Below, piece by piece: positions 13,850 through 36,896 of a DNA stretch of 64,000 bases. The notes beneath the pieces were generated by a model that worked only from the letters and a program-made list of their open reading frames with translations, was not told the origin of the DNA and did no database searches. Every line of letters starts with the position of its first letter. Position 1 is the stretch's first letter. The translations under genes and the position numbers were made by a program. The stretch spans positions 2,457,521 to 2,521,520 of the forward strand of contig RPFO01000165.1 of NCBI GenBank assembly GCA_009746045.1, read 5' to 3'. Source of the DNA: Mesostigma viride (taxonomy: Eukaryota; Streptophyta; Mesostigmatophyceae; Mesostigmatales; Mesostigmataceae).

Positions 13850-13853
13850 CTGC

Positions 13854-14117
13854 TGTCACGGACGCGAGCTATGTCATCCGGGCGCCCACTATGCACAAGA
13901 CCGGTGACGTGCGCAAGGAATTTGTTTTCTACGCATTTTCGACAAAGGCTAGTGACCGGGGGGGGACACTAGCACTTGCAGCATAAGAGCGGACGAAAGT
14001 GTACGTGCACGCGCGCCGGGCCAGGCACAGCTGGGCGCGCAGCACTGACTTGAGCGGACGGCAGCACAAGTGTGCAGCGTCGAGAGGATCATACGCGTGT
14101 TAGTGGACAGCTGGAGC
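13854..14117 (+). repeat. Y1 segment A1, left part
   Basis: First 264 bp of A1, matching 35575 onward and 44606 onward. It is interrupted by X' inside GGAGC and resumes at 22600-23468. Confidence 0.85.
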
Positions 14118-14764
14118 AGTTAGCATTTTGGGCAACCAATATGCTAAGTGGATGCAGTTTGGAAAGACCTTTCCAACGCCGTGCTGACCGCCTGAAACAG
14201 ACAAGGGACAAGAAAGATATGAGGTCCCGAAGTCCTAGCCGTCCGCGGTCAGCGAGGGTGCAACCTTCTGGGTAGTGGACAGGACACGTGGCAGGCCGTG
14301 CCTGCACAGGCTTAGCCTGACTATCACGTGACTGTGGTCCACGTAGACCAGGAGGGGCAGCAGCCTGCGACTGGTGGGGTACTGGAACTGGCGCAAGGCT
14401 GCAAGGATACTAGGTCTTGCAGGCTTGTGACAGGTCCTGTACTTCCTAGGTTGCAGGTAGCTAGGTAAATCCAGTTCGTCCTGGCTCTGCAAGGATGCCA
14501 GTGGACGTTGAGGATTTGCTAGCAAGCCTGCAACATGCCTCGTCACACCGATGGGAACGAGGAGCAACAAAGAGGCATATAGCTTGGTCATGGGGATGGC
14601 CAAGCTATCTCGGAAGCACGCGCTCTGGTTGCCCACTTGAACGTGGAAGTGACCAACAAGGTGTGGCTTGGTGTTTGGGCTAAGGATTGCTGTCTCCAGC
14701 AATTGGCTCAAGCTTTGCGTGAAAGACCAAGAGCTCACACGCTCTGGGCTGGTTTCGTCTAACT
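14118..14764 (+). repeat. X' 5' LTR
   Basis: 647 bp with AGTTAG and CTAACT ends, the same as 21953-22599. Short frames inside it in both directions are duplicated in the other LTR and are not genes. CGTACTATTG, the primer-site candidate, follows at 14765-14774. Confidence 0.9.
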
Positions 14765-14791
14765 CGTACTATTGGTTCCGCGGCGCATTTC

Positions 14792-15931
14792 ATGTCGGAA
14801 GAAATTCCGGCGCTTACGCAATCGCCAAGCCAAGAAGCTGCAGTGCCGCGGCAGGAGGCAGAAGGACCCCTGCATCCATACAGCCAGCCAGAAACCGCGT
14901 CCACGTTTGTGCAAGCTGCGCATTTGGCGAGAGGCTTGGCGCGGGGAGGCTGGGTAGCTGTTTTCGGCAACTCGGAAGGGCCGTCTGCCAACGACCCTGT
15001 TGTGATGCGTGTGCGGGCCACGACTTCTCCGGGGGAGACGAGTCGTGTGACGGTGGAGCGCTTGATTGCGCTGAGAGACGAGGTTGCTGCGCTTATCTAC
15101 AGCCTTGAGATCGCCTATCAAGGTGGTCACGTTACGCTGCACGGTTTGGATCTTGCTCGAGAGGCGTTGGGACAGTTAGTCGCCATCAGCCTTGGTGCCA
15201 CCCGGTTATTCAACCATTGGGTCGCGACGAGTTCCCTCGGTGAGGGGACGAACGCTTCACATCTCGTGCGTGACGCGCAAGTGCGTGAGCAGGACAGCCC
15301 CTGGTCCTCGCAAGAAGTAGTTGCTCAAACCTGTGAGCACCTTGTTAACATTTTGCTTCAAGAGTCGCGAGGCCACGCAGATCGGTGGCTTATCACCACG
15401 CGTCCTGCCGGCATCTGGTCCACATTAGACACCCCTCGTGTTGTTGGAGCCCCCGGTGCATACGGTCCGTCGGTGGAAATCGTCACAGGTCGGGAGCTGT
15501 CCCCACAGGCAGTGCACGACGAGTTCGTCGACCGCCCGCCGGGAGTTATTGTACGCTCGTCCCAGCAGTTGGACGAGGGAGACGGTTCTGCAGCAGGGTT
15601 CTCCGAGCGGCAACGTGCAGATTATCACATCCCGCCGGAGCCGTTGCACGACTACAGCACCTTCGGCCTTGGGGCATACAACGAGCGACGAGGTGGAGGA
15701 GGACGCTGGGTGCGTAACGTGGTGTGGGGCAGGCGCCCTAACGAGAGGAGTGTGCCGTTTGACCAAACCACAGACGGGAGGCCCGTCAGTCGCCTTCTTG
15801 GACCTTATTCTGAGGAGGAGGTGCGAGCTATTCCTCGGGTGAGGACGCCGGTGGCTGTCACTGCTGAAGAGCGGGAGAGAGAAGCCGCTGCTGAGGCAGA
15901 GCGCGAGGCAGAGGAACTGCCCGACGCTTGA
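14792..15931 (+). CDS. X' ORF1, conserved protein of unknown function
   Basis: 379 residues, between the LTR and gag. The ATG is the first after the primer site and aligns with X ORF1. It has no recognisable domain. The N-terminal ~35 residues are variable; the conserved body begins at TFVQAA (about 36) and contains LDLAREALGQLV, TRLFNHWVAT, NILLQESRGHADRW and PSVEIVTG. The tail is Glu/Ala/Arg-rich and probably helical. No signal peptide, membrane segment or Cys cluster is seen. The homologue in the diverged X family is collinear and keeps the same position, which argues for selection on an element function such as particle assembly, RNA binding or host interaction; none of these is shown by the sequence. 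Extra genes in LTR elements usually lie after pol, so placement before gag is unusual. gag follows after about 58 bp. Confidence 0.8.
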   Translation: MSEEIPALTQSPSQEAAVPRQEAEGPLHPYSQPETASTFVQAAHLARGLARGGWVAVFGNSEGPSANDPVVMRVRATTSPGETSRVTVERLIALRDEVAALIYSLEIAYQGGHVTLHGLDLAREALGQLVAISLGATRLFNHWVATSSLGEGTNASHLVRDAQVREQDSPWSSQEVVAQTCEHLVNILLQESRGHADRWLITTRPAGIWSTLDTPRVVGAPGAYGPSVEIVTGRELSPQAVHDEFVDRPPGVIVRSSQQLDEGDGSAAGFSERQRADYHIPPEPLHDYSTFGLGAYNERRGGGGRWVRNVVWGRRPNERSVPFDQTTDGRPVSRLLGPYSEEEVRAIPRVRTPVAVTAEEREREAAAEAEREAEELPDA

Positions 15932-15989
15932 AGTCCTGTCTTCTTTTGCATACCCTTGCGTGTTGCAGTGTCGCTTTGTACATAATATA

Positions 15990-17375
15990 ATGCCTCGTGG
16001 GAAGGCCGGCGACGGCGACAAAGGCGAGGAGGAGAGGCCTGTGGAAACGGGCCAGGTGATGCGAAAGGAGAAGGAGCCCATGGCGGGGGAAGCAATCCCT
16101 GCTAGCAACGGTGACGGGAGCAAGAGGCCGGGAGGAAAGCGCAAACATGAGGAGGCGATGGAGGAGGCCAAGCGGGCGCGGGCGGGGTGGCCTTCAGATG
16201 CTGTGCTGGTGGCTGACGGACAACCAACGCTGGAGAAACGTAAGAGGGACTTGTCCTCTGACGATAATGGTAAGCGTCGTCATGTAGACGTGCCCTCCCC
16301 CAACCCTGCTGGCCCAAGTGGTGTCGTAACTGTGACGCCCGCTGTGACTGGTGTCGCTGCTGTGACGCCCCCTGTGGCTGAGACAGTTAGGGCGTTACCG
16401 GGGTCGAGGCCTCACATGAGCGCCGTGTCCGTCATGAATGGCCAAAAGCCTCTCTGTCCACCATTAGCGCAGGAAGCACTAGATAAATGGCTTGAGGACA
16501 TGGAGCTGGTGGTGCTCTCTGTGGATCCCACCGTGAATCTGGTGCAAGTCTTTCATTCCTCAACATGCAACCGGGATTCCTCTGAACGTGTGCGTGAGAA
16601 GACTAGGGTGGCTGTGAAGGACAAGCTAACCTGGGCACAGTTCCTGGATGGACTGAGGGAGGAGTTTTCAGACAAGGTTTTGAACCTCACAAACTACTAT
16701 AAACACCAGTATGACACGTTCGAGATCATTGGCCCTGTTGCAGAGGAGTGGGCCAGGCTCAACCGTATCAGAGACAAGGGGGCCAAGTATGGCTTCCTGG
16801 TCACAGATAGAGCCTTGGCAGACTATTTCCTGGACCGAATGGGGTTGAGTGTGGATGGGAGGAACAGTGCCCGCATGTTTCTGAACCAGACAGATGGGAC
16901 CTTGCGTGCTCTAGAGCTGGTTATCCTTAGTATCAGGAAGCCAGACCCTGCCTGCAAAGCCATTCAGTCCCACGGCAGCAATGCCACCTCCGCTGCACAG
17001 GCCCAAGGTGATGTCCCCGGGTACCCAGCCCGTGGTGGGGCAAGGCCTAACAAGCGTAGGCGCTTCAGGCGCCAGAGGAATGGGGCTCAGGGTGGCAAGG
17101 GTGCAGGTTCCCAAGGAGGGGTTGGGAGCCAGCAAGCTGGTGGTCAGCAGGGCAAGGGTGGCCAAGGGCAAGGCAAGAGCCAAGCTCAAGGCAATCAGGG
17201 CAAGCAGGGTGGGCAGCCTCAGGGAGGCCAGGGGAAGCCTGGCAAGGGTGGGGCTGGGTCTGGAAAGAAGGGTGGAGCATGCTTTGTGTGTGGCAAGGAA
17301 GGTCACTGGCGTCGTGAGTGCCCTGACAGGAAGGCCAAGCCTGCTGGGGCAGGGGGCCAGTCTGGGCAGCAGTGA
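15990..17375 (+). CDS. gag: X' gag, ending in UGA in frame with pol
   Basis: 461 residues from ATG 15990 (MPRGKAG). A Lys/Glu-rich N-terminus is followed by a capsid-like region (LEDMELVVLSVDP, VREKTRVAVKDKLTW, YFLDRMGLSVDGRN), a long Gly/Gln/Lys stretch and the CCHC knuckle CFVCGKEGHWRREC near the end. It packages the element RNA in cytoplasmic particles, by analogy with other LTR gag proteins. The stop is TGA at 17373-17375 followed by CTAG, the best-known readthrough context. pol continues in the same frame with no further stop. Confidence 0.85.
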   Translation: MPRGKAGDGDKGEEERPVETGQVMRKEKEPMAGEAIPASNGDGSKRPGGKRKHEEAMEEAKRARAGWPSDAVLVADGQPTLEKRKRDLSSDDNGKRRHVDVPSPNPAGPSGVVTVTPAVTGVAAVTPPVAETVRALPGSRPHMSAVSVMNGQKPLCPPLAQEALDKWLEDMELVVLSVDPTVNLVQVFHSSTCNRDSSERVREKTRVAVKDKLTWAQFLDGLREEFSDKVLNLTNYYKHQYDTFEIIGPVAEEWARLNRIRDKGAKYGFLVTDRALADYFLDRMGLSVDGRNSARMFLNQTDGTLRALELVILSIRKPDPACKAIQSHGSNATSAAQAQGDVPGYPARGGARPNKRRRFRRQRNGAQGGKGAGSQGGVGSQQAGGQQGKGGQGQGKSQAQGNQGKQGGQPQGGQGKPGKGGAGSGKKGGACFVCGKEGHWRRECPDRKAKPAGAGGQSGQQ

Positions 17376-17379
17376 CTAG
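17373..17379 (+). promoter_or_regulatory. UGA CUAG gag-pol stop, probable readthrough site
   Basis: A single UGA separates gag from pol in the same frame, and the next four bases are CUAG. The first ~13 codons after the stop encode SPVNSQSPL in both X' and X2, upstream of any possible pol Met. That is expected if translation passes through the stop. In X2 the site reads UGA CUU G (43289-43295). Confidence 0.65.
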
Positions 17380-20300
17380 CTACATCATCCCCTGTAAATA
17401 GTCAATCACCCCTTGGGGAAGGTGTGCTGAATGTACATAAGGATGGGGGTGTGCCCCTTGTGCAGCACCAAGGGTGTAAGGATGTTGTTCTTCCACTGGA
17501 TTGCAATAATAATGCTGCAGCTGAATCCCCTATGCCTCATGCAGGTGGTGGGTCTCCAGCAGGTGCTGGCCTGGAAGGCCAAAGGACCTTGCTGGAAGGG
17601 CCTGGAGCGGTCCAGGGTGCAGGGCCTGGCTTGGGGCGTCAGGATGGCCTGCAGGGAAGCCCTGGAACCTCAGGAGTGGATCATGTGTCCCCACACACGG
17701 TTCAGACGTCTCGCCAGGTCAGTACTGAGAGAGTGCTGAGCTATGCTGAGGCTGGCCATAGGTTGCATCACATGTTTGGACACTCTGGGCAGGCAGCAAT
17801 GTTTGCTTGGAAGTTAGGTAGGGAACCTTTGTGGGAGGCATGCCAGGCTGCTGCTGAGAACTGTGGTTGCCAGGAGAATGCTGTTCACCCACCCCAGTCC
17901 CATGCTAGGGAGCCTGCTAGGGAGCGTGGCGACATCCAGATGGATATCCAGCATATCAGGGGCTTGTATATATTAGTGGGGGTGGACAGGTTCAGTAGAT
18001 ATAGACTGATAGACATTCTACCTGGTATGCAGGAGCATCACTTGTTGTTGGGTATGAAGGCCCTGATCCCAGGCTTTGGGGTATGCAAGAGTGTGCAGGC
18101 AGACTTGCAGTTTGACTGTTTGCTCAAGCATCAGGACCAGCTGCCTTGTAAGCTGGTAGTAGTCCCCAGGGAGAGTCATGGGCAGCAAGGGGCTGTAGAA
18201 AGATCCATACGTGAGGTGAAGACAGTGGTGCTAGCAGCAAAGTCGGTGCCACTTGTGGCATCTGCCTTAGAGAGGGCAGCCTGGTGTAAGGGGATAGAAG
18301 AGCAGCTGAACCACAGGGTTAATTACTACTTTGATGGTGTGGCTGTCTCTCCCCTGGCCCTGCAGTATAGCTTACTACCTGAGAATGTGGTGCAGGCCAG
18401 TCTTAGAAAGGCAGACAGGCTGTTTGCCCAGCTGAGACGTAAGGACAAGAACTGGAATGTGCTGAGGCCTCAGGTGGGGCTGAAGGTCAGGATGTGGAAG
18501 GAACCATCTATTCCAGGCAAGCGGGGGAAGTGGCAGGATGGGGTTGTCACTCGTGTGGAGGAAGCTAACAGATCTTGCCTGGTGGCTTTGGAGAAGGATC
18601 CAAGGCACGTGTACAGGTTGTCCTGGGCTCATGTCAAGGAGAGAAGGCCACATGCAATCTGGCCTGCAGACGGGCCAGGCCCTCCCAGTTGGGTTGAGGA
18701 GCCAGGCCAGAGCCAGGCAGCAGCAGCTAACAATCCTCTGGTGGTGGATGATGGTCTGTCCCTACTGGAAGATGACGAGCAGGAGGCTGCTGAAGCAACT
18801 GTCACAAGGCCAGAGGGGACGGGGCAGCCACCTAAGGCCCGGGGGCCTCTCATGGCGGACGTCATCCGAGCACTCATGCGCAGCAAACATGATCCCAAGG
18901 TATCCAAGCTCACGGGGTGGGGGTCGTGCTGGGCAGCTACAATGGAGGTAGATACCAACTCACAGGTGTCTGTCATCAGGGAAGAGGATGCTGTAGGCTT
19001 ACAGATGTCCCATCCCAGTTGCCTTGCTGTGTCTGATTTCTCAGGAAAGGTGTCCATGAAGATCCTTGGGGAAGTGAGTGTGCCTATCTTAGGGGTGCCC
19101 ACCACGTTCTGTGTGGTAGAGGGCTATCAGGGGCCTGCCATTCTGGGTCAGAATTTCTTGTGCATGCCAGGGGTTACTTTGACCTCTGATAAGTTGGCAC
19201 TAGAAGGCAGGGGCAGCCTCCCCCTTGAAAGATATCACTATTCCCAGGGTCTTGCAGTGGCGGTGAAGGCTGTTAAGAGTCAGCCAGCTGAGGGTCCTCA
19301 AGGTCAGGAGCCCATAGCTGAGGACCTGTTGATAATCCCAACCACCTTTGATCCGCGGCAGTTAGGGGTAAACAGGTATCAGATAGCTGCTCACAGTCCT
19401 ATTCCCTGGCGCCAGCTAGTCGAGATGATGCAAAGCCCCAAGATGGCTAAGGCATGGACTCTTGGCTTTGTTGCTTCTGGGCATGAGTGGATAGTTTCCA
19501 ACTGTGCAGAACCTGTGGATGAGCTGCCAGAAGTTCACCAGCTGCTCAGATTGATGTTTGTCCTCAAGCTCAAGGAGGTAGATGGTGTCCAGGTGCCACA
19601 TGTCAGACCAGTTGTAACCGAGTATCATGGCACTGGCCAGTTGTTAGATGAGGAGCTCTATACTCCAGGGATGCTGCATGACACGTGGAGGATTCTGCTG
19701 TGTATATTTCTGTCTTTTCTGGTCAAGGGTGTGCCCTATAGCTCTGTGCTGATTGATTTCAAGAGGGCTTTTCTCAAGGGTGACCAAGATCAGGCTAGGC
19801 AGACTTGGAGAGATATCCCTCCTTTCTTTGTGACTGTACCTGCTGTATGGAGAGCAGAGATAAAGGCCAGGTACCTGAGAATTCTGAAAGGGTTGGAAGG
19901 TCTCAGGTCCAGTCCCATTATCTGGAGAAAGAGCCTAGAGAAATTCTTGAAGAATACTTGTGGGTTTTCTGTGTCTCCAGTGGATCCCTGTTTGTTCCAA
20001 GGGTCCCACAATGGCCTTCCTGTCTTTGCCTCACTGCATGGTGATGACCTGCATCTTATAGGTCCACCAGACTGGGTTGAGGCTGTTTTGGCCAAGATCC
20101 AGAAGCGGTTTGAGCTGGGTAAGATACAGCACATGGTGGAGAATGAGCCTATGGTCTTCTGTGGCATGCAGGCTACGTTGTTCCAAGCCAAGGGCTCGTG
20201 GTTCATCAGGATGGAGGGTGGTAAGGACTACCCACAGCAGATTGTAGATGCATTGCAGGAGCCCATCACGCAGGCTAGGTGTGCTACCATCAGGGGCATG

Positions 20301-20945
20301 CTGGCATGGCTTGCAAGTATATGTGCCCCTGACCTGCTGGTTTTGAGTCGGCTCACTGACTCCCAGCTGGTTGAGGTGGGGGCTGAGAGTGTGGTGCAGG
20401 CTGTCATGATGTCTCCCCCTCTTATACTGGGTCCTGTAGATTTGTACAAGCCCCTTGACATGATCCTTTATGTTGACAGTTCTATGGACAATAGGAAGGT
20501 CACTGAAGTCAGGGGCAGGGCAGCAGCAGTAGTCACCCTGGAGCAAGATCACACCTCACTTGTTACCTGGTACAGTCGGTTGCAAAACAGGGTTACACCC
20601 AGCAGTGATATTGCTGAGTGCAGGGCAATCTGTGAAGGGCTGCATACTGCTCTTTACTTAAGGGAGCTATTCTACCAGCTATGTCAAGTGGCTTCCTGTA
20701 GGTTGCAGCTGCACACACTGGTGAGGACTGATAGCATGGGCATGGTGCAGTTTGTGCACAGGCAGTTAGCCAGGAGCAGGGACCTTGACTACTTGTTGCT
20801 CAAGGAGATGTCCTACCTAGCTCACATTGAACATGTGCCTGGTGTGGATAACCCTGCAGATGCCCTCACCAAGCTGGAGGAGAAGGCGGAGCGGCAGTAC
20901 CCCCTGCTCCGTGGGCTCATGGACCCCTTGCATGGGCAGCCATAG
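17376..20945 (+). CDS. pol: X' pol: integrase, protease, RT, RNase H
   Basis: About 1189 residues, counted from the codon after UGA. A His/Cys zinc region (LHHMFGHSG ... CGCQ) is near 130-170. DDE integrase acidic residues appear in MDIQHIRG (~189), VQADLQFD (~241) and GQQGAVERS (~272). A retropepsin-like segment follows, with VDTNSQVSVI (~525, DTN in place of DTG) and AILGQNFL (~588). RT has FKRAFLKGD (~796) and LHGDDLHLIG (~888) in place of the YVDD box. Copia-type RNase H has LYVDSSMD (~1031), SDIAECRAI (~1077) and RTDSMGMV (~1117). RT and RNase H place it with Ty1/copia, but copia order is PR-IN-RT-RH, whereas here the protease lies between integrase and RT. The frame is fully open. There is no natural pol ATG at the start, which fits readthrough from gag. 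Confidence 0.9.
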   Translation, partial: LATSSPVNSQSPLGEGVLNVHKDGGVPLVQHQGCKDVVLPLDCNNNAAAESPMPHAGGGSPAGAGLEGQRTLLEGPGAVQGAGPGLGRQDGLQGSPGTSGVDHVSPHTVQTSRQVSTERVLSYAEAGHRLHHMFGHSGQAAMFAWKLGREPLWEACQAAAENCGCQENAVHPPQSHAREPARERGDIQMDIQHIRGLYILVGVDRFSRYRLIDILPGMQEHHLLLGMKALIPGFGVCKSVQADLQFDCLLKHQDQLPCKLVVVPRESHGQQGAVERSIREVKTVVLAAKSVPLVASALERAAWCKGIEEQLNHRVNYYFDGVAVSPLALQYSLLPENVVQASLRKADRLFAQLRRKDKNWNVLRPQVGLKVRMWKEPSIPGKRGKWQDGVVTRVEEANRSCLVALEKDPRHVYRLSWAHVKERRPHAIWPADGPGPPSWVEEPGQSQAAAANNPLVVDDGLSLLEDDEQEAAEATVTRPEGTGQPPKARGPLMADVIRALMRSKHDPKVSKLTGWGSCWAATMEVDTNSQVSVIREEDAVGLQMSHPSCLAVSDFSGKVSMKILGEVSVPILGVPTTFCVVEGYQGPAILGQNFLCMPGVTLTSDKLALEGRGSLPLERYHYSQGLAVAVKAVKSQPAEGPQGQEPIAEDLLIIPTTFDPRQLGVNRYQIAAHSPIPWRQLVEMMQSPKMAKAWTLGFVASGHEWIVSNCAEPVDELPEVHQLLRLMFVLKLKEVDGVQVPHVRPVVTEYHGTGQLLDEELYTPGMLHDTWRILLCIFLSFLVKGVPYSSVLIDFKRAFLKGDQDQARQTWRDIPPFFVTVPAVWRAEIKARYLRILKGLEGLRSSPIIWRKSLEKFLKNTCGFSVSPVDPCLFQGSHNGLPVFASLHGDDLHLIGPPDWVEAVLAKIQKRFELGKIQHMVENEPMVFCGMQATLFQAKGSWFIRMEGGKDYPQQIVDALQEPITQARCATIRGMLAWLASICAPDLLVLSRLTDSQLVEVGAESVVQAVMMSPPLILGPVDLYKPLDMILYVDSSMDNRKVTEVRGRAAAVVTLEQDHTSLVTWYSRLQNRVTPSSDIAECRAICEGLHTALYLRELFYQLCQVASCRLQLHTLVRTDSMGMVQFVHRQLARSRDLDYLLLKEMSYLAHIEHVPGVDNPADALTKLEEKAERQYPLLRGLMDPLHGQP

Positions 20946-21952
20946 AGACCAGGCCTTGCTTCAGCTTGGGTGTCCCCGGTGGGTTGTTTGACCAAAGTGC
21001 CAAGTGGTGACTGGTGCTTGCTGGTTGACAACTGGTCCTTCAGGGTTAGGTACACCCTCCTGGACAGGAGTTGGTGTGGAATGTCACTCCTACCAGCTGA
21101 GAATAATGCCTGGCCCTCCCCATGGGGTTCAGAAGAGTCGCCAGGACTTAAGTCGACGCCTTTGGCCTCAAACAGTTAGGCCATGCAAGGGCAACCCGAA
21201 TGCTGGTTCTTACAGGTTGCTGTACATATGTTTTCTAGTGCTTGTTTCCAACCTGTTGCTAATAAAGAACCTGGTTGTGTGACCATGTGACATGGTTGCC
21301 AGGGAGCCACATTCTGGGTTATATAATGCTTGAATAAAACATAATCATGTCATTCTCATGTATGTTGTTCACCTGGTTGTCATGTTTGTTTTGTGAAAAG
21401 TTCCAGGTCACCTATAAACCTGGAGGTTGGGGTGGGGTTCAATTCCCCAGCAGAGCCACAGCCTGGCGTGAATGACTCCTGGGCTTAACACCCAGTGAAG
21501 ACATGGGCTCCCCAAGGAGACAGCATTAATCTAGGTGCTACCTGAGTTCTTTGAGCAGAAGGGAAAGGTTGGCCAAGGCGGGCGCCATAAGAACGGGCGC
21601 CTGTGATAACTGTGAAAGACCAGGAACTCACAATAGTACGTTCTTGGCATCCTGTAATCCCAGCCATTGAGCTAGGTAATGTACCTTCACATTAATCCAA
21701 CACCAAGTTCCCAAGGAAAGGTTGGGAGCTGACCAAGGGGTCAGGGGATAACCTGGGGTGACCTCTGATTCACTGGCCAGCATACCTAAGCTATTCCAAG
21801 GGCACATATGTTGTGTTCCCAAAAGGAAGGCAGGAACCTGGGCCCTGACAGGTCTGATCAACCTCAAGGGACCAAGCGATCTGTGGCTGAGTGGGCACAA
21901 GCTAGGCTAGGTTGTTTCAAGCTGGTCCAGCTCCAAAAGAAGAAAGGGTTGG
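20946..21952 (+). other. X' 3' untranslated region
   Basis: About 1 kb between pol and the 3' LTR with no gene. It holds AATAAA signals near 21260 and 21333, a CCAGG...CCTGG hairpin (21403-21423), a T-arm-like GGGGTTCAATTCCCC (21434-21448), CAATAGTACG at 21631-21640 (complement of the primer site) and a polypurine tract ending AAGAAAGGGTTGG at 21952. The same modules occur in the diverged X family, so this region probably carries RNA signals. Confidence 0.6.
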
Positions 21953-22599
21953 AGTTAGCATTTTGGGCAACCAATATGCTAAGTGGATGCAGTTTGGAAA
22001 GACCTTTCCAACGCCGTGCTGACCGCCTGAAACAGACAAGGGACAAGAAAGATATGAGGTCCCGAAGTCCTAGCCGTCCGCGGTCAGCGAGGGTGCAACC
22101 TTCTGGGTAGTGGACAGGACACGTGGCAGGCCGTGCCTGCACAGGCTTAGCCTGACTATCACGTGACTGTGGTCCACGTAGACCAGGAGGGGCAGCAGCC
22201 TGCGACTGGTGGGGTACTGGAACTGGCGCAAGGCTGCAAGGATACTAGGTCTTGCAGGCTTGTGACAGGTCCTGTACTTCCTAGGTTGCAGGTAGCTAGG
22301 TAAATCCAGTTCGTCCTGGCTCTGCAAGGATGCCAGTGGACGTTGAGGATTTGCTAGCAAGCCTGCAACATGCCTCGTCACACCGATGGGAACGAGGAGC
22401 AACAAAGAGGCATATAGCTTGGTCATGGGGATGGCCAAGCTATCTCGGAAGCACGCGCTCTGGTTGCCCACTTGAACGTGGAAGTGACCAACAAGGTGTG
22501 GCTTGGTGTTTGGGCTAAGGATTGCTGTCTCCAGCAATTGGCTCAAGCTTTGCGTGAAAGACCAAGAGCTCACACGCTCTGGGCTGGTTTCGTCTAACT
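21953..22599 (+). repeat. X' 3' LTR
   Basis: 647 bp, the same as the 5' LTR. It is preceded by the polypurine tract and followed by the second GGAGC target repeat. Confidence 0.9.
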
Positions 22600-23468: not shown

Positions 23469-23483
23469 ACTCGAAGAGACTAC
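23469..23483 (+). promoter_or_regulatory. Self-complementary primer-binding site of Y1
   Basis: ACTCGAAGAGACTAC directly abuts segment A1 and is the exact reverse complement of 23172-23186 inside that segment. It is followed by a small hairpin (AGACTAC CCG GTAGTCT). No TGG-type tRNA primer site is seen. This layout matches Tf1/sushi self-priming. Confidence 0.65.
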
Positions 23484-23764
23484 CCGGTAGTCTGCTTCCT
23501 TCTGTTCGAAGCCAAGACGTTGGCTTTAGTGTTTAGCAACCATCAGCAGTACAGGGAACGGCCTGGCTGACAGTTTGTAAAGGAAGTGTCTTGAGACAGA
23601 TTTTAAGAAAATAGAACTAGCCAGAATTTGCTGGCTCTTGTCTTTTTCTGGCAGGCTAGTCGAGTCGTTATCCTTGACACCTGTTATAAAGCCTTTGGTT
23701 GTTGCTTCTTCTCAGCGAAACCTAGGCTTGTTGGTTCTTGTTTTGCCCATCGGTCAGCTGGTGC

Positions 23765-27948: not shown

Positions 27949-28725
27949 TGTTGGAAAGGTAGAGGAAACTAATGGGTTTTACACAATGCCTTGTGCTTGG
28001 CCTTGTTACCCTTGCACCTTGCAGGTGATGAAAGACTGAGCTTGAAGACAATGGAAGAGAGACCAGAAAAAGAGTTTTATTTCTTAGGCTGAGAGGTTAG
28101 GAAAAGAGGTACCTGGCCTTAGGAGCCAGTTTCTTTTTATACCTTTCTAGCTAGGAAGGATGACATCAGATGCTGATGTCATCATAGAAGCTTGTAGAAA
28201 CATCTAAGCATATTCCCAGCATATTCTCAGTATATTCCAGGAATATTCCTGGTATATTCCTAGAACATTCCAAGGTCATTCTAGAAAGGTTCTAATGAGC
28301 TGGCATGACAGTTGATTGCCAAATGTCCTCTGAACAATGTGCCACATCTAATGCTTAATAAAGTGACACATGGTTTCTACTTGGAATGACAAGTGTAATC
28401 CAATGAGTCTATCCACTTGTCAGTCAATGGAATGCAACACTTGTCACTATGAGCTTCCAACACATGTCAGCTCATGGAATGGACACTTGTCTACCAAAGA
28501 AGTACACCACTTGTCAAGCATGGAAGTGATGCTACTAGACCAACTCAGGTACAAGAGATCTATGGCCAAATATAGGACTATGGCACATGAACATTGATCA
28601 GCTCATTGAGAGCAATTCATCTAACTTATCAATCTATCAAATTCTCAGCCCTTGTGAAGTAAAACAAAGAAGAAGAAAGTCAGGCTGGAATATAGTGTGG
28701 GCAGGTGGGTATATGATCCCCAACA
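27949..28725 (-). repeat. C2 3' LTR
   Basis: 777 bp with TG...CA ends, AT-richer than its surroundings. It contains repeated ATTCC/TATTCC motifs (about 28205-28290) and several ACTTGTC words (28400-28520). It matches 33117-33897. Confidence 0.9.
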
Positions 28726-28753
28726 CCCCCCTTAGCCAGCTGAACACAAAGGA

Positions 28754-31700
28754 CTAAGTTGACATGAGTTTGCCACGCAGGGCAGTGAACCTGGCACGTG
28801 AAAGTGCCTTCGTCAGAAGATCAGCAAGCATGTCCTCCCCAGGACAATGCTTCATGGCGATGAGTCCCCCCTCCACCTTCTCCCGGATGAAATGGAAACG
28901 CACGTCAATGTGCTTCGTGCGCTTGGGATGAACAGGGTCACGAGCGAGTGCCACGGCGCCTGTGTTGTCGCAGAAGACAGGCGTGGGCCCCTGAACTGGA
29001 TGCCCCAGCTCCCCCAACATGTGCCTCAGTGGAAGCACTAGCTGGGTTACGCTGCTAGCAGCAATGTACTCCGCCTCGCAGGAAGACAGGGCGGTAACGT
29101 GCTGCTTGCGGCTGCACCACTCGACTGCGGCCCCCCTGAACATCACTACATTGCCAGAGACAGATCTGCGTGTCTCAGGGCAGTTCCCCCAATCGGCATC
29201 CGTCCACCCCTCCAGCCCCCCTTGGCCACCATAGCGCAGTCCCAAGTCCTTGGTGTGGACAAGGTAGCGCACCAATCGCTTGGCCAGCTCCAAGTCGCCC
29301 TCCGTGGGTGCCTGCATGCATTGGGCCAGCTGGTTGACAGCAAAAGCAATGTCTGGGCGCGTCCATGTCGCGGCGTACATGAGAGCACCAACAATCTGCT
29401 GAAAGAGTTGATGGTTTGGGGCATCACACATTCCCCCCTCGCGACGGGGACTACCAGGCACTATAGGGGTGTGCACAGGGTGAGGGGTAGAAAGCCCAAA
29501 ACGGGCAGCAATAGCTTCAATGTAGGGCCGTTGGTGCATGGTAAGGGAACGAGACGCAGGGTCGATAGTAAGGGAAACACCGAGGAAAAGAGAGGGATTG
29601 TCCGACTCAGTGATTTGAAAAGTATTAGCCAAACGGCGAGACCAGGATGCCAGCCAGGAAGGGGAAGGATGAGCAGCAAGAATGTCATCGACGTGCACGA
29701 ACACGAAACCACGAGACGAAGGGTAGTAATACAGGCACGCATCAATTTGGCTTTGGATGGCGCCGTCAGAAAGAAGGTGTGCACGGAACGTTTTATGCCA
29801 ATTGCGTGGCGCTTGCTTGATGCCATACAAGCTGCGGTGCAGCTTCCACACAAGCACATCGCCATTGGCATCCCGCTCTTCAAAGCCAGTAGGGGGACGC
29901 ACAAAGACATCCTCCTGTAGGGGAGCATAGAGAAAAGCGGTTCGGACATCGAGCTGCTTGACAGTAAAGCCAGACGTGACAGCTAAAGCAAGAGCAAGTC
30001 GCACGGTGGACGCACGAACAGTGGGGGAAAAGACTTCATTAAAGTCGATACCTTCACGTTGGGCAAAACCTTTCACGACAAACCTGGCCTTGTGACGGCC
30101 GTCGGACTTGACAGCAAATACCCACCGGGAAGGGAGGACCTTGGCACCGGCGGGCAAAGTACGCGGGCTCACAAGCGAGTATACTGCATGATCACGAATG
30201 CTATTAATTTCGCTCAACATCGCAGCCCGCCACTCTGGACTGTTGTTAGCCTCAGTAAAGGAGACGGGAAGGGAAACGTCACTGCCAGTAAAATGCACTG
30301 TGTCAAAAAGATCACGAACTGACTGGTAATGCGGAAAAAAACGAGCCCATTTAGGCGACACCGTGACAGGGGGAGCATAGGTAGTAATCTCCATCGCGAG
30401 GGGTTCACGGGTGCTACCGCAAAACATCAGCTCATCAGCAGTTGCCATGGCGACATTACCAGCTGGGTTACGTCGCAGCGCAGAGATTGTACTTTGCAGT
30501 CGAGCAGCACTTGAAGTGGCAGTGACCGGTGGACCAGCAGACAGCTCCCGTGCGTCACTTGGGGAGACGTCGTCAGTAGTTAGGACGGGCTGTGAAAAGT
30601 TTGGAGCACCGTCGAGCGCCTCCGGAACTGGTCTAGGACTTGGGACGTTGACTGCATCAGGACTTGGTGCGTCCGCTCCCTCGTGGCGAAGCTCCTCAGG
30701 AATATCCCTTCTGGTGGCGTCCAGAAACCTCGCCTGAGACCGGGTGACCGGTCCGCTAGGTTCGGCCAGAGAATTTGGCTGAACTTCTGCTACAGCCGGA
30801 AGATCAGTTGGTGAAGTTTCCTCCAGTGCGGCAGAACTTTCCAGAAGCGGCGCAGGAGTTGGCATGGCCCCATTGCGCCAGGCCTCATTGAAGGTGACAT
30901 GCAGGCGGCGAATGACATCCTTGGATTCTGGACGGTAAATGAGGTACGCCGGCGATTCCAGATCATAGCCGACGAAGATTCCAGGCAGAGCCTTGGCCTC
31001 CAGCTTGCCACGTGGGCCCTCCACCCGATAGAAGGCAGGGCAGCCGAAAATTCGAAGATTCGAGAGATCCGCATTGCGACCGGTGAGCAGGAAGTGTGGC
31101 GTGGCACCTCCAGGATTCGAGCTAGACGGCAGGCGGTTAAGTATATAAACCGCGCAATTGAAGGCTAGTGCCCAGAATCCTTTGGGCAAACCGGCATGCG
31201 TGAGCATTGCCAGTGTCATGCCCATGGCCAGACCCCACAGCCGCTCCGCCACTCCGTTCTGCTCAGGAGTGTAGGGGCTGGAGAACTCCTGGTGCACTCG
31301 GTGTTCAGCGCAGACGGCCCGCCACGCCTGCCCAGTGAAGACTGCGTCGTTGTCGGTCCGGAGAAGAATCGAACCGTTGTAGAAGGGGCGAATTTCGCGC
31401 GCGAGCAGCTGCTGTAGGGCGTCAACAGCCTCGTCCTTGTGTCGAAGCGGAAAGCACCATCGCCAGCGGGTAGCATCGTCGGTGAAGCCGAGCATGTAGC
31501 GGGCGCCTCCAATTGCTGGCTGCATCGGCCCGAGAATGTCGCTGTGAAGCTTGGCTCGGGGAACAGTCGATCGGAGCTGTCCAGGCGAAAATGAGCGCCT
31601 CTTGATGAAGCCAGCAGGGCAGGATGGGCAGCCAGGCGATGACAGGCGCCTCGAAAAAAGGTTAGACTCCGGAATGGCGGCCAGCCTCTTGATCCGATCT

Positions 31701-33097
31701 TCGCCAGCATGCCCAAGACGCCAGTGCCAGAGCAGGCTCGCCGGCCGCTCGATGGCCGTGGCAGCCATTGCCGCCTCGTCGCGCTCCGCAGGTAACACGT
31801 AGATGTTGTTCTGCAGCGCAATCTTGTGCGTCTCGTTGTCCAGCACCACTGTCTGCTCGGTGAGGTCGACTTTGTGGCCGTCCTTGGCGAGCTGCCCAGC
31901 TGATAGCAGTCGGGCGCTCAAGCCGGGCACGAAGAGCGCACCATTCAGGTGCACATGCTGGTTGGGCAGTTTGAGCCGAATCGTGCCCACTCCCGTCGCG
32001 CGAAGACGTCCTCCTGATCCGACGATGTTCCTAGTGGTGGGGGTGAGGGACACAAAGTCAGTGCGGCATGGGGACATGTGGCTGCTTGCAGCGGAGTCCA
32101 GAACCCAGGCAGGGGGCTTGGGGCTATACTGCGTGAGTGCAGCAGCCTCCTGCGACGGCGCCGACTCGGCGATGGTGGTGAAGACGAAGCCCTCCGGCAG
32201 CTCCGCGGCCTCCTGGGTGTTGTTGGCCACGCTTCCGCCAGGTGAGGACTCCTTCTTGGTCGCTTGGTTGCCCCTCCTGCGCTGGTTGCCCCGCCGTCCT
32301 TGGTTCTTGCTTCGTGGCTTGAGCTGGGAGTTCTTTTGCCAGCACTGGGTCTCCGCATGCCCACTCCTGTTGCAGTAGGCGCAGTGCTTCCTCTCACCAC
32401 CCTTGTTGGCAGTGTGGAAAGCTTGACCTTGGGCTGGCTCCTCCTTGGTAGCTTGAGAAGGCCGTCCTCCCAGCAGCATGTCCTCCGCCTCCAGCAGCGC
32501 AGCCTTGACCTCCTCCAAGCTGTCCTCCTCTTTGAAGTGCGCTGAAATCAGGGCAGGGCGATATCGGTCAGGCAGGCCGCTCTTGAGGATAGCCGCAAAA
32601 TCTTGGTCGCTCATGACGCCTCCCACCGCACGGTAGTCCGCCAGCAGCAGCAATCCACGTAGGATATACTGCCCCATGGTCTCCCCAGGCTTCATTTGCA
32701 GCCGGTGAAGCTGAATCCTGAGGTCCATGCGGTGACTCTTGGTGAGCTTTTGTTGCTCGTAGACCTCCCTCAGCGTCTTGTAGAGCTTGCTGCCAGATTG
32801 GTCTGGCACGAGCGATAGGATGCGCCTCGCTTCTCCCACAAGTGCAGCTGAGATGACAAGGCCAACAGCTTGGTCAGCCTTGCGGTCCTGCCTGGTGCCC
32901 AGCAGGACGTCCTTAACCTCATAGAAGGAACAGAAACCCTCAAGAGATGTCTTGGTCTCCTCCCAGCCACGTAGGCTTGTGCCATCGAATTTCAGCACCA
33001 TCTTGGAGCACACATTCAGCATAGGAGTGTAGTCGACGTCGCTTGCCATGGAGCTTGTAGCTGGGCTGGGTTTCTTGGTGGTCTTCTTGGAGCTCAT
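28754..33097 (-). CDS. gag-pol: C2 gag-pol polyprotein, intact
   Basis: 1447 residues in one frame, normal for plant-type copia. In order: helical UBN2-like gag (1-215), CCHC knuckle CAYCNRSGHAETQC (~236), protease WVLDSAASSHMS (~330), pre-integrase zinc region LWHWRLGH ... CPSC (~460-490), integrase with HSDILGPM (~517), RTDNDAVF (~584) and PEQNGVAERLW (~616), RT with VKQLDVRTAFLYAPL and the active-site box FVHVDDILAA (~1136), and RNase H with DADWGN (~1300), SSCEAEYIA and TKHIDVRFHFIREKV. It makes the particle, copies RNA to DNA and inserts it. The start ATG is about 20 bp after the LTR and primer site. All catalytic residues I can check are present. Confidence 0.95.
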   Translation of the reverse strand: MSSKKTTKKPSPATSSMASDVDYTPMLNVCSKMVLKFDGTSLRGWEETKTSLEGFCSFYEVKDVLLGTRQDRKADQAVGLVISAALVGEARRILSLVPDQSGSKLYKTLREVYEQQKLTKSHRMDLRIQLHRLQMKPGETMGQYILRGLLLLADYRAVGGVMSDQDFAAILKSGLPDRYRPALISAHFKEEDSLEEVKAALLEAEDMLLGGRPSQATKEEPAQGQAFHTANKGGERKHCAYCNRSGHAETQCWQKNSQLKPRSKNQGRRGNQRRRGNQATKKESSPGGSVANNTQEAAELPEGFVFTTIAESAPSQEAAALTQYSPKPPAWVLDSAASSHMSPCRTDFVSLTPTTRNIVGSGGRLRATGVGTIRLKLPNQHVHLNGALFVPGLSARLLSAGQLAKDGHKVDLTEQTVVLDNETHKIALQNNIYVLPAERDEAAMAATAIERPASLLWHWRLGHAGEDRIKRLAAIPESNLFSRRLSSPGCPSCPAGFIKRRSFSPGQLRSTVPRAKLHSDILGPMQPAIGGARYMLGFTDDATRWRWCFPLRHKDEAVDALQQLLAREIRPFYNGSILLRTDNDAVFTGQAWRAVCAEHRVHQEFSSPYTPEQNGVAERLWGLAMGMTLAMLTHAGLPKGFWALAFNCAVYILNRLPSSSNPGGATPHFLLTGRNADLSNLRIFGCPAFYRVEGPRGKLEAKALPGIFVGYDLESPAYLIYRPESKDVIRRLHVTFNEAWRNGAMPTPAPLLESSAALEETSPTDLPAVAEVQPNSLAEPSGPVTRSQARFLDATRRDIPEELRHEGADAPSPDAVNVPSPRPVPEALDGAPNFSQPVLTTDDVSPSDARELSAGPPVTATSSAARLQSTISALRRNPAGNVAMATADELMFCGSTREPLAMEITTYAPPVTVSPKWARFFPHYQSVRDLFDTVHFTGSDVSLPVSFTEANNSPEWRAAMLSEINSIRDHAVYSLVSPRTLPAGAKVLPSRWVFAVKSDGRHKARFVVKGFAQREGIDFNEVFSPTVRASTVRLALALAVTSGFTVKQLDVRTAFLYAPLQEDVFVRPPTGFEERDANGDVLVWKLHRSLYGIKQAPRNWHKTFRAHLLSDGAIQSQIDACLYYYPSSRGFVFVHVDDILAAHPSPSWLASWSRRLANTFQITESDNPSLFLGVSLTIDPASRSLTMHQRPYIEAIAARFGLSTPHPVHTPIVPGSPRREGGMCDAPNHQLFQQIVGALMYAATWTRPDIAFAVNQLAQCMQAPTEGDLELAKRLVRYLVHTKDLGLRYGGQGGLEGWTDADWGNCPETRRSVSGNVVMFRGAAVEWCSRKQHVTALSSCEAEYIAASSVTQLVLPLRHMLGELGHPVQGPTPVFCDNTGAVALARDPVHPKRTKHIDVRFHFIREKVEGGLIAMKHCPGEDMLADLLTKALSRARFTALRGKLMST

Positions 33098-33116
33098 GAA
33101 GATTCCTCCGATACCA

Positions 33117-33897
33117 TGTTGGAAAGGTAGAGGAAACTAATGGGTTTTACACAATGCCTTGTGCTTGGCCTTGTTACCCTTGCACCTTGCAGGTGATGAA
33201 AGACTGAGCTTGAAGACAATGGAAGAGAGACCAGAAAAAGAGTTTTATTTCTTAGGCTGAGAGGTTAGGAAAAGAGGTACCTGGCCTTAGGAGCCAGTTT
33301 CTTTTTATACCTTTCTAGCTAGGAAGGATGACATCAGATGCTGATGTCATCATAGAAGCTTGTAGAAACATCTAAGCATATTCCCAGCATATTCTCAGTA
33401 TATTCCAGGAATATTCCTGGTATATTCCTAGAACATTCCAAGGTCATTCTAGAAAGGTTCTAATGAGCTGGCATGACAGTTGATTGCCAAATGTCCTCTG
33501 AACAATGTGCCACATCTAATGCTTAATAAAGTGACACATGGTTTCTACTTGGAATGACAAGTGTAATCCAATGAGTCTATCCACTTGTCAGTCAATGGAA
33601 TGCAACACTTGTCACTATGAGCTTCCAACACATGTCAGCTCATGGAATGGACACTTGTCTACCAAAGAAGTACACCACTTGTCAAGCATGGAAGTGATGC
33701 TACTAGACCAACTCAGGTACAAGAGATCTATGGCCAAATATAGGACTATGGCACATGAACATTGATCAGCTCATTGAGAGCAATTCATCTAACTTATCAG
33801 ATCTATCAAATTCTCAGCCCTTGTGAAGTAAAACAAAGAAGAAGAAGAAAGTCAGGCTGGAATATAGTGTGGGCAGGTGGGTATATGATCCCCAACA
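33117..33897 (-). repeat. C2 5' LTR
   Basis: 781 bp, the upstream LTR in the element's orientation. The minus-strand primer site TGGTATCGGAGG lies just inside the element. AAGTG follows at 33898-33902. Confidence 0.9.
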
Positions 33898-33902
33898 AAG
33901 TG

Positions 33903-34994
33903 CAGGGTGCTGTCTTGACTCCTACTCCAGTCGATTGGACTCCTGCTCAGAAGGCGACGGAGTTGAACAGGGTGCAGCACAGGGCTGCAACCTATGGTTG
34001 GGAAGATGGGGTTTTGTACAAGCTGTTGGGCAAGCGTAGGGTGGTCGTCCCACCGCCTGACAAGCGCGTTGCTATAGTGCAGGCGTACCACGAGCGGTAT
34101 GGTCACTTGGGTGGCAATCGCACGCTCAGCCTCGTACGGACCAGCTATTGGTGGAATAACATGCGACACACAGTGGCCCAGGTAGTGGCCAGCTGTGTCC
34201 CGTGTGCTCGAACCAAGGCTAACTTTAGCGCAGATCATGGTGCCAAGGAGCTGATGTCGCTTCCCATCAAGGGCTTGTTTTATCGCTGGCACGTCGATCT
34301 GTGCGGGCCGTTTCAGGAGAGCCCTGACGGCAACCTCTATGTCATGGTATGCGTGGAGAGCTTTAGCAAATGGGTTGAGTTGATCCCCATTGCTGACAAG
34401 CATGCCGCTACCACAGCGAAGCATTTTGCAGACATCATCACCAGGTTTGGGGCTCCCGCGGAGGTAGTCACGGACCAGGGTGGTGAGTTCAGGGGTGAGT
34501 TCCAGGAGTTGCTGGATGGATGTCTTATTGATCACCGTCGCACTTCTCGGGAGCATCCTCAGGCCAATGGTTTGGCTGAGAGATTGGTGCAGACCGTCAA
34601 GCAGGCGCTGCGCAAGTGGAGCCTGCAGGTGCCGGAGTCGGCCAGGTGGGATCGCGAGTTGGCATGGATTGCCATGGGTTATCGCATGTCTCCCCAGGAG
34701 TCTCTCGCTACCTTCTCCCCGTATTTCCTTCTGTTCGGGCGTAATCCTCTTTTGCCTACGGAGGCACAGGTTGCGCACCCCGAACCCATGGCCTTCGACA
34801 ACGCTCAGCAATTTTTGGTTGAGGTGCTGGCCAGGGCAGAGACTTTTAAGAAGGTCATGCCCATCGCGATGAACAACTTGTTCATTGCTCAGCACAGGGA
34901 CTCCCTGCGTTACGCTCAGCGCCGGGGGGCGCATACATGGCTCGCCAGCTGCGGTTTAGGCCAGGGCAGTATGTTTTCCTGCGCACTCAGCTGA
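33903..34994 (+). pseudogene. pol: Y1 integrase, frameshifted before its C-terminus
   Basis: Ty3-type DDE integrase. The zinc-binding HHCC region is at about 34091-34215 (YHERYGHLGG ... CVPCARTKA). The catalytic acids lie in WHVDLCGPF (~34288), VVTDQGGEF (~34470) and QANGLAERLVQ (~34575). It inserts the cDNA into chromosomal DNA. One G is missing in the run near 34925 (six G where seven would keep RRGGAYM in frame), so the original C-terminus, including the PHD finger, lies in the next frame at 34937-35404. Y2 carries integrase beyond the window. Confidence 0.85.
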
Positions 34995-35404
34995 AGCACA
35001 CTTTGGATGTGGAGGCGGGGCCCACCATTTTGCGCATTGTGGCTATCAAACCATCGGGAGTGGCAATTTTGGAGGGCGCCGACGGGAGCCGTACGACAGA
35101 CAACCTCAGCAATCTCAGCGATCCCTGCTCACTGCCCAATTTGGTCCACGACCTCCAACCGCACACATCTCGCCGAGTCAAGGACGCCCAGTGTCAGGTT
35201 TGTCACCGGGTCGATCAGGCGGAGTCCATGTTATTGTGTGATCAGTGTAACTGTGGTTGGCACATGCAGTGCTTGCAGCCCGTGGTCACCAGCATTCCGG
35301 AGGGGGATTGGTTTTGTCCAGTGTGCACCGCTGCGCAGTTTACCTCCCGCAGCTTGACTGCGGTCACCGCTGCCCTTGTCTTGGTACGATCGCTGTCTTC
35401 GTGA
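34937..35404 (+). CDS. Y1 integrase C-terminal module with PHD finger
   Basis: About 155 residues continuing the integrase after a one-base frameshift. First comes an integrase C-terminal (GPY/F-like) segment: FRPGQYVFLR, TILRIVAIKPSGVAILEG. Then a C4HC3 PHD finger at about 35192-35328: CQVC ... CDQCNCGWHMQC ... WFCPVC. PHD fingers in host proteins read histone H3 tail states; here the module sits where chromoviruses carry a chromodomain, so target choice through chromatin is the natural inference. The stop lies about 26 bp before the purine tract and B1. Confidence 0.85.
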   Translation: MARQLRFRPGQYVFLRTQLKHTLDVEAGPTILRIVAIKPSGVAILEGADGSRTTDNLSNLSDPCSLPNLVHDLQPHTSRRVKDAQCQVCHRVDQAESMLLCDQCNCGWHMQCLQPVVTSIPEGDWFCPVCTAAQFTSRSLTAVTAALVLVRSLSS

Positions 35405-35414
35405 TGGGGCCGGT

Positions 35415-35429
35415 CGCCAGCGAGGGGGG
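35415..35429 (+). promoter_or_regulatory. Y1 polypurine tract
   Basis: The G-rich tract GCGAGGGGGG directly precedes segment B1 (AATCATGGG). It is the expected plus-strand primer and fixes the left end of the reverse-transcribed repeat at about 35430. Confidence 0.6.
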
Positions 35430-36853
35430 AATCATGGGACAGGTCCTCGCCCACCCCACAGGGCATGCAGTTAAGGCAGGCACATCAGCTCAGCTCATTT
35501 GGGTTTTACCAAATTAAGCTGAGTGGCCAGCCGCCATGGTGGCGCCGGAGATTGTGGCACGCAGACGCGACAGCTGTCACGGACGCGAGCTATGTCATCC
35601 GGGCGCCCACTATGCACAAGACCGGTGACGTGCGCAAGGAATTTGTTTTCTACGCATTTTCGACAAAGGCTAGTGACCGGGGGGGACACTAGCACTTGCA
35701 GCATAAGAGCGGACGAAAGTGTACGTGCACGCGCGCCGGGCCAGGCACAGCTGGGCGCGCAGCACTGACTTGAGCGGACGGCAGCACAAGTGTGCAGCGT
35801 CGAGAGGATCATACGCGTGTTAGTGGACAGCTGGAGCTGAAGCTGGACTGCTGGACTTCAACAGCGCCGAGGCTATTGACAGGCCAGGTGTCTTTGTGGT
35901 GTAGAATAGCGGGTCAACGTTATGAGGACTGGACAGAAAATGGAAAAGGACAATTTGCGGTGCGGAGCCAGATCGCTGGAATGAATGCGAAATCGCTGGC
36001 AGCCCTACAAAGGGATTTCTTCTAGAAAGGAACGATTAGACGCAATGTTTGCTGGGCCACTCACACGCAAGGTGTGAGCGTGCAGATTGTCTGAAGGATA
36101 TTATGCTTCGACCTTGCTGGACGTGACTCAATGTCGGACATTCCCAGGGACAGAAATGCCGGAGCCTCTAGGAGATGAGATCGGCAACAGGGTAGCAATT
36201 TAGATTTGTCGGGATGCCTTCCTGCTTTTGTTGGCATGTGTGGTAGAAAGCCAGGACGGCAACTGGAATGCGGTTTCTATTCGCATGGTTCAGGCAGCAA
36301 GATAGTTTTGGCATTCCTGGCTGGACTGACAAGTGTGGCGTGTGTCATGCGTGTGGCATGACGAATGGTTTGGTTCATAGTCGAAGAGGACTCTCACGCA
36401 GCGTGTAGTCTCTTCGAGTCTCTCGTTAGTGGCCTTCGTGTTTCTCCCTTTCCTTGGGAGCAAGGCCGGTAGCATGTCATGGAGCGCTGCCTAACTGCGG
36501 GCTCGTGAGCATGGAGTGCATCGATATTGAGACTATCAACGTGTTGTAATTGTATTAACTTTCTCAATAAACTCCGCATGTGCGGCTTCATCATCAGACT
36601 GTGCAAAGTGTGTGTTTTGAAAGCATTATTCTATAGCAGGGGAGGCAATAAGGTGGTTATCAGGCACGAGGGACAGTTCCTTGTCCTCGGCTGAGAGCCC
36701 TCCTTTCTTTAATCATGGGACAGGTCCTCGCCCACCCCACAGGGCATGCAGTTAAGGCAGGCACATCAGCTCAGCTCATTTGGGTTTTACCAAATTAAGC
36801 TGAGTGGCCAGCCGCCATGGTGGCGCCGGAGATTGTGGCACGCAGACGCGACA
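35430..36853 (+). repeat. Y1 right terminal block B1-GC-A2-B2
   Basis: B1 35430-35572, the dinucleotide GC at 35573-35574, A2 35575-36710, B2 36711-36853. B1 and B2 look identical. The B1/A2 joint is the palindrome GACAGCTGTC; the outer ends of Y are the two halves of that palindrome (TGTC and GACA) without the central GC. A2 holds the AATAAA and the primer complement (36405-36419). No gene is supported. Confidence 0.85.
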
Positions 36854-36896
36854 CTGCCCCGCTCCCGCTGCCGCCCCCGCGCGTGTTACGAAGCAT
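36854..36896 (-). pseudogene. gag: X1 gag N-terminal fragment
   Basis: The ATG at 36896 (AATGCTTCG context, matching the X' gag start ATAATGCCTCG) opens about 14 codons before Y1 begins. It joins in frame with the gag body ending at 13849 once one copy of CTGC is removed. The target duplication at 36854-36857 lies within it. Confidence 0.65.

Follow-up and report, generated by a model that had tools for sequence, protein, structure and literature searches.

The stretch of DNA analysed here, called the window below, comprises 64,000 nucleotides of contig RPFO01000165.1 from Mesostigma viride and is a nest of mobile elements. Its main subject is Y, an element with Ty3/gypsy protein domains, which interrupts an early open reading frame (ORF) of a second element, X. 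The latter is a long terminal repeat (LTR) element on the minus strand and is about 80% alike to Z, a further LTR element of the window. X and Y form tandem units, which follow each other in the order Y0 end, X0, Y1, X1 and Y2 start:

1-1106, plus strand: end of Y0, with A2 at 1-963 and B2 at 964-1106, then a CTGC flank as in Y1
1107-13853, X on the minus strand: X0 region with CTGC, array unit
13854-36853, plus strand: Y1, between the CTGC copies at 13850-13853 and 36854-36857
36854-44605, X on the minus strand: X1 region, array unit
44606-45741, plus strand: A1 of Y2, uninterrupted and flanked as in Y1; the internal region is next, with no B between

Sequence comparison of X0 and X1 yielded an identity of about 99.5%, and the two compared pieces shared by Y1 and Y2 are 99.5% and 99.9% identical. 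The X flanks of the partial copies Y0 and Y2 match those of Y1 at about 99.5% identity. Since these flanks are common to all three copies, the copies testify to a single insertion only, and Y0, Y1 and Y2 are best read as one insertion that was amplified in tandem. Treating Y0 and Y2 as independent insertions was rejected, their flanks being the same as those of Y1. Each X unit displays one LTR-like segment only (2800-3063 and 38546-38805), which resembles the outcome of unequal crossing over between X LTRs or of circle amplification.

Repeat layout and target duplication of Y1

The order of features in Y1 is CTGC - A1 - internal - B1 - GC - A2 - B2 - CTGC and holds base for base. The split arrangement of the repeats, as given in a preliminary description of this DNA, is borne out to the base. 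The individual parts are:

13850-13853, no strand: left target-site duplication CTGC, from direct reading and the frame test
13854-14117, plus strand: first part of A1, whose outer end TGTCACGG begins at 13854
22600-23468, plus strand: second part of A1, ending in CTTTCTTT and parted from the first by the later insertion of Z
23469-35429, plus strand: internal region
35430-35572, plus strand: B1
35573-35574: GC dinucleotide between B1 and A2
35575-36710, plus strand: A2, with the inferred RNA start (R start) at 36405 and AATAAA at 36566
36711-36853, plus strand: B2, with the outer end GCGACA
36854-36857, no strand: right target-site duplication CTGC

B1 and B2 are identical at 143 of 143 bases, as are all three B copies in the window across this length, which is expected if both B ends derive from one template. 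A2 of Y1 is identical to A1 of the next array copy, Y2 (1136/1136 bases), while the two aligned pieces of Y1's own A1 differ from A2 by one mismatch and 10 gap positions. At an expectation value (E) of up to 1e-3, the window yields five A pieces and three B pieces, all of them in the array. The array copies agree at every border that they show, namely on the left of Y1 and Y2 and on the right of Y0 and Y1. A simple misreading of the LTR borders was rejected, as these were mapped to the single base.

Three other LTR elements of the window, Z, W and V, served as controls. Each features two complete LTRs and a 5-bp duplication (GGAGC, CATGA and AAGTG, respectively); the odd layout of Y is therefore not a general feature of the assembly. 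A fourth repeat pair, U (58196-60330), has no clear duplication. Y departs from the Ty3/gypsy pattern of complete LTRs at the ends: its integrated ends are TGTC and GACA, and the borders defined by reverse transcription are internal.

A single CTGC between the two flanks of Y1 gives an uninterrupted X frame of 472 codons, measured from stop to stop, which spans the junction and has an ATG a short way upstream of it (MLRNTRGGG...). The frame is broken if CTGC is counted twice or if no more than two of the four bases are taken out. The in-frame read-through of the host ORF with a single CTGC, claimed in the preliminary description, is confirmed by this comparison, the frame being broken in both alternatives tried. 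Short target-site duplications are characteristic of Ty3/gypsy elements, and the CTGC copies, with the host frame restored, are in line with this, a length of 2 bp being possible as well. Conservative site-specific insertion with GC as the shared core was rejected, since the right flank reads GACA-CTGC and not GACA-GC.

The joint between the internal repeats carries a further feature:

35569-35578, no strand: 10-bp perfect palindrome GACAGCTGTC at the B1-GC-A2 joint

This palindrome, GACA-GC-TGTC, occurs as a single copy in the window. The integrated ends TGTC and GACA correspond to its halves with GC left out and represent a TG...CA inverted pair. Across Y, with A counted twice, perfect 10-bp palindromes start at 7 of the 7867 positions scanned.

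Reverse transcription signals and coding capacity

Three sites at or near the A/B borders are relevant for the reverse transcription of Y:

23172-23186, plus strand: self-primer and inferred RNA 5' end (R start), GTAGTCTCTTCGAGT, with a second copy at 36405-36419 in A2
23469-23483, plus strand: primer binding site ACTCGAAGAGACTAC, directly 3' of A1 and a perfect complement of the self-primer
35422-35429, plus strand: purine run GAGGGGGG, inferred polypurine tract, directly before B1

Directly after A1, the 15 bases ACTCGAAGAGACTAC pair perfectly with GTAGTCTCTTCGAGT of A, of which they are the reverse complement. This match can neither be extended by one base nor be started one base earlier, and among 3476 further 15-mers examined in the internal region of Y2 (45757-49246), none is complementary to any part of A. 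In the controls, the first 40 nucleotides after the LTR are complementary to the element's own LTR over at most 8 (Z), 6 (W) and 7 (V) nucleotides. Folding of the predicted 5' region of the RNA placed the pairing of primer binding site and self-primer at the extreme 5' end. The usual priming by a transfer RNA (tRNA) was rejected for Y, as no TGG opens its internal region, compared to TGGTATCGGAGG at this place in W and V. Over the whole window, ARAGORN detected no tRNA. A primer binding site complementary to the predicted RNA 5' end is the hallmark of self-priming in Tf1/sushi elements and is found in Y. In plants, a Tf1-type arrangement was predicted for gypsy elements of the Tcn1 clade (PMC6317226, of which, as of the other papers cited here, parts were considered).

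Primer binding site and purine run delimit a repeat B-GC-A of 1281 bp (35430-36710) with the ends AATCATGG and CTTTCTTT; these two ends, joined directly, give the A2|B2 joint CTTTCTTTAATCATGG to the base. The ends produced by reverse transcription would lie at the A/B borders and not at the integrated ends. That the two signals define a B-GC-A repeat had already been proposed; the self-primer and the exact A|B joint strengthen this assignment.

The proteins of Y were assigned from the following regions:

23726-25576, plus strand: gag-like ORF, no Pfam match
25390-26904, plus strand: start of pol in Y1, with weak matches to a CCHC knuckle and an aspartyl protease, after which a deletion cuts the frame
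26867-27972, plus strand: end of the reverse transcriptase (RT) and RNase H remnant in Y1, in two frames
33897-34994, plus strand: integrase of Y1, with H2C2 zinc finger and rve core, D-58-D-34-E
34850-35404, plus strand: C-terminal part with PHD finger in Y1, in another frame than the integrase core
47660-51062, plus strand: pol ORF of Y2, with a protease-like region, a C5-cytosine DNA methyltransferase and, by eye, the first part of the RT; it ends at the insertion at 51063
62968-64000, plus strand: second half of the RT and RNase H of Y2, resuming after the insertion

With its H2C2 and rve domains and the D-58-D-34-E spacing, Y encodes the HHCC-DDE integrase that had been ascribed to it. 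In a comparison with the Protein Data Bank (PDB), it resembles the integrases of foamy virus (PFV; E 5e-20) and Ty3 (E 1e-17). The position of this DDE integrase with H2C2 finger 3' of RNase H is that expected for Ty3/gypsy elements, as is the Ty3-type RT with RNase H, which is derived from Y2. There, the region 63039-63998 matches RVT_1 (1.6e-19) and RT_RNaseH (1.8e-39), with a match to Ty3 in PDB of 2.8e-44. The RT of Y2 is split by an insertion of 11.9 kb. Y1 is devoid of the RT catalytic core: about 14 kb of Y2, including the methyltransferase, are gone from it (26950-26990 versus 49229-63300), and the 7-bp sequence CCGGGTG is shared at the deletion junction. The earlier assignment of a Ty3 RT to Y thus stands on the matches in Y2 in the main, as the core is absent from Y1.

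The methyltransferase in the pol ORF of Y2 matches PF00145 (2.5e-11) and, in PDB, 4onj as the best entry ('DNA methyltransferase', 5e-05), followed by HaeIII (8e-04), HhaI (1e-03) and plant DRM2 (1.2e-03). Entry 4onj is presumably a plant DRM as well. The domain (49280-50300) reads W-E-C-Q at the place of the P-C motif, P-C being usual at this site. A PDB search with the whole pol piece of 1078 amino acids yielded no matches.

No chromodomain was detected in 34850-35401 at E up to 0.5; a PHD finger is present instead. Following a gypsy integrase, it occupies the place that the chromodomain has in chromoviruses and may be a chromatin-reading targeting module. A search for tyrosine recombinases (PF00589, E up to 0.5) gave no match in 20 of 27 ORFs on both strands; the list comprised ORFs of at least 110 amino acids in the scanned parts of Y1 and Y2, and the seven left out were minor, most of them on the minus strand. 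On this basis, a tyrosine recombinase in Y was rejected.

Searches of contig collections gave three, zero and four pattern-matched stretches in viral contigs for the integrase, the RT/RNase H and the methyltransferase-RT part of Y, respectively, and six in genome contigs for the RT/RNase H, none of which was confirmed, and no match in viral contigs for the 28-base B-GC-A joint; the collections are viral and prokaryotic, so these blanks say little.

The remaining elements of the window are listed below:

14118-22599, plus strand: Z, LTR element in A1 of Y1, duplication GGAGC
27949-33897, minus strand: V, LTR element in Y1, putatively copia-like by its ORF, duplication AAGTG, not part of Y
3989-8981: W, LTR element in X0; TGGTATCGGAGG follows its LTR directly, and the duplication is CATGA
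51063-62967: element of 11,905 bp that interrupts the RT of Y2; its terminal inverted repeats (GGGTGGTTTTACC...) are perfect over 29 bp, and the duplication is GTA

The LTR of Z has the ends AGTTAG...CTAACT, not TG...CA. We take TGGTATCGGAGG after the LTR of W to be a tRNA-type primer site. The 11,905-bp element contains long minisatellite-like arrays, a nested pair of 631-bp direct repeats and an ORF of 405 amino acids, and looks like a putative DNA transposon.

Integration of Y

From the observed layout, host frame, primer complement, exact joint, palindrome and protein domains, we infer a route by which Y may be copied and inserted. The RNA of Y would start in A1 at GTAGTCTC... and end after the AATAAA in A2. 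Its first 15 nucleotides, given their complementarity to the site after A1, could fold back on this site and prime the minus strand, and the plus strand would start at the purine run before B1. The resulting complementary DNA (cDNA) would be linear, with B-GC-A at either end of the internal region. Joining of its ends would give a two-LTR circle with the joint CTTTCTTT|AATCATGG, which is visible in the inserted copy as A2|B2. The DDE integrase would then cut both strands of one GACA-GC-TGTC after CA, with 5' GC overhangs of two nucleotides as the result, and the A-internal-B-GC-A-B molecule would be inserted with a 4-bp duplication, the GC overhangs probably being lost in repair. Such a cycle would be self-consistent: the internal B1-GC-A2 would carry the palindrome onward, and the outer ends of A1 and B2 would be rebuilt from the palindrome each time.

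We consider it somewhat probable that Y is a self-priming Ty3/gypsy element whose DDE integrase opens a two-LTR circle at the palindrome and inserts the permuted copy. The preliminary description had equated the integrated form with a two-LTR circle that has been opened at GACA-GC-TGTC and has lost GC. This agrees with the testable features, the circle step being the inferred part of it. The earlier interpretation as a whole is partly supported and in part strengthened, with the mechanism unproven because one insertion alone could be studied. For the wider claim, namely that Y belongs to a Ty3/gypsy lineage in which the closed circle is obligatory, the integrase recognises a palindrome inside the RT-defined LTR and the insertion is permuted, we see about an even chance.

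Several points weigh against integration by way of the circle. The data hold just one insertion event, as Y0, Y1 and Y2 form a single tandem array, and the circle, the RNA ends and the proteins are predicted from the sequence. A two-LTR circle has two palindromes; a cut at both would give A-internal-B and A|B, and the proposed route requires that one of them be spared. The precursor of retroviral integration is linear DNA and not the two-LTR circle, a view that a proposal made in 2005 for foamy virus reportedly left standing. The length of the duplication is either 2 or 4 bp, since the left flank of Y1 itself ends in GC and a duplicated CT with this GC kept gives the same letters as CTGC with GC lost. 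We prefer 4 bp because TG...CA ends and duplications of 4-6 bp are usual for integrases of this class, a choice that one insertion cannot decide. Lastly, the X frame is intact solely between the two flanks of Y1 itself. If the left flank of Y2 is used instead, the frame stays open across the junction for 167 codons and is interrupted beyond them, and the right flank of Y0 breaks it through a 1-base difference within a C run; we read these breaks as probable later damage.

The strongest rival explanation is a recombination within A between a resident solo A|B unit at a CTGC site and a one-LTR circle (internal-B-GC-A) or linear cDNA. One crossover would yield the identical A-internal-B-GC-A-B with the old duplication outside, and the CTGC duplication would belong to the solo unit. 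However, for such a unit to exist with TGTC/GACA ends and a CTGC duplication of its own, integration by way of these ends must already have taken place, and no solo A|B lies in the window, where the 8 hits of A and B (E up to 1e-3) are all located in the array. We regard this explanation as unlikely. The same holds, with a slightly lower ranking, for a linear route in which an unusual reverse transcription yields the A-internal-B-GC-A-B ends directly, without a circle. Although TGTC and GACA resemble ordinary ends processed by an integrase, no purine run lies directly before A2, no B stands ahead of the internal region to carry a primer site after it, and the strong primer site and the purine run are both found at A/B borders; the outer part of A1 and B2 would, moreover, fall outside the predicted RNA.

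Later rearrangement or an assembly error, which would have turned an ordinary element with B-GC-A repeats into the present form by loss of B on the left and gain of B on the right within the array, appears very improbable. In its favour, the region is a tandem array with nested insertions, and tandem duplication hides independent evidence, but both changes would need to end precisely at the palindrome, with matching CTGC copies left behind and the host frame restored. The array copies also agree at each border shown, and the layout was already published elsewhere (PMC5890265). The lowest probability is assigned to insertion of the circle by a separate enzyme, for example a tyrosine recombinase acting in trans from a DIRS/PAT-type element. 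The layout of Y is indeed that of PAT/Ngaro elements (PMC4157794). Nevertheless, Y has its own DDE integrase, and PF00589 matched none of the 20 ORFs scanned out of the 27 listed (E up to 0.5). A net gain of two to four target bases was seen at Y, unlike the outcome of insertion by tyrosine recombinases, which is conservative.

Comparison with known systems and implications

The preliminary description had proposed a new way of integration for an LTR-type element, if general for the family. The layout of split repeats with Gypsy domains is itself not new. For KnitGypsy-Dnmt3 of Klebsormidium nitens, a Gypsy element with a methyltransferase within Pol, the repeat structure of a DIRS retrotransposon together with the domain composition of Gypsy was given in the legend of Fig. 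4c (de Mendoza et al. 2018, PMC5890265). This layout with Gypsy domains has been in print since 2018 for at least one family. Compared by description only, Y shares with it the Gypsy domains, the methyltransferase in the Pol ORF and the A-coding-B-A-B repeats, and matches the description in the features tested, the Dnmt3 clade aside. The words 'circular', 'target site' and 'PHD' are absent from the main text, and the parts of the paper covered do not describe any duplications, primer site, palindrome or integration route for this element.

The PAT, Ngaro and Kangaroo retrotransposons have split direct repeats A1-B1-A2-B2 in common with Y, but encode a tyrosine recombinase, whereas Y features a DDE integrase, a Ty3-type RT and a short target duplication (PMC4157794). 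Tf1/sushi and Tcn1-type elements share self-priming by a primer binding site complementary to the inferred RNA 5' end (PMC6317226). Y is distinguishable from them by its split repeats, the methyltransferase and the PHD finger, and no chromodomain was detected in it. In open-licence PubMed Central literature, KnitGypsy appeared in one paper, no gypsy element with a PHD finger was found and no paper describing a gypsy element by the wording A-B-A-B, and the part of PMC6338049 covered yielded no mention of PHD or split.

Recombinant PFV integrase cuts the LTR-LTR palindrome in vitro on both strands after CA, leaving 5' overhangs of two nucleotides, and only two nucleotides are lost between circle junction and provirus (Delelis et al. 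2005, PMC1180852). HIV-1 integrase likewise cuts its own junction palindrome (PMC1905944). Y resembles PFV in the CA-NN-TG palindrome and the loss of two bases, and its CA-GC-TG would present the same geometry to a two-strand cut after CA. The PFV palindrome, however, is the ligation joint of the LTRs, whereas that of Y lies inside the RT-defined LTR with the ligation joint elsewhere.

To the layout published in 2018, the window adds the duplication, the frame of the empty site, the primer, the purine tract and the palindrome, which together suggest how this layout works. If the wider claim on the lineage is true, integration at the circle junction would be obligatory and seen in every inserted copy, and DDE-integrase elements would converge on the split-repeat design of tyrosine-recombinase retrotransposons. 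If Y works as proposed, split direct repeats would follow from the integration of a circle by whichever recombinase, and not from tyrosine recombinases as such. Whether DDE integrases use the closed two-LTR circle as a real substrate is an old question, which was left as a side path of retroviral research. Should Y work as proposed, each inserted copy would record the circle step, and this question would be testable by insertion counts and one enzyme assay.

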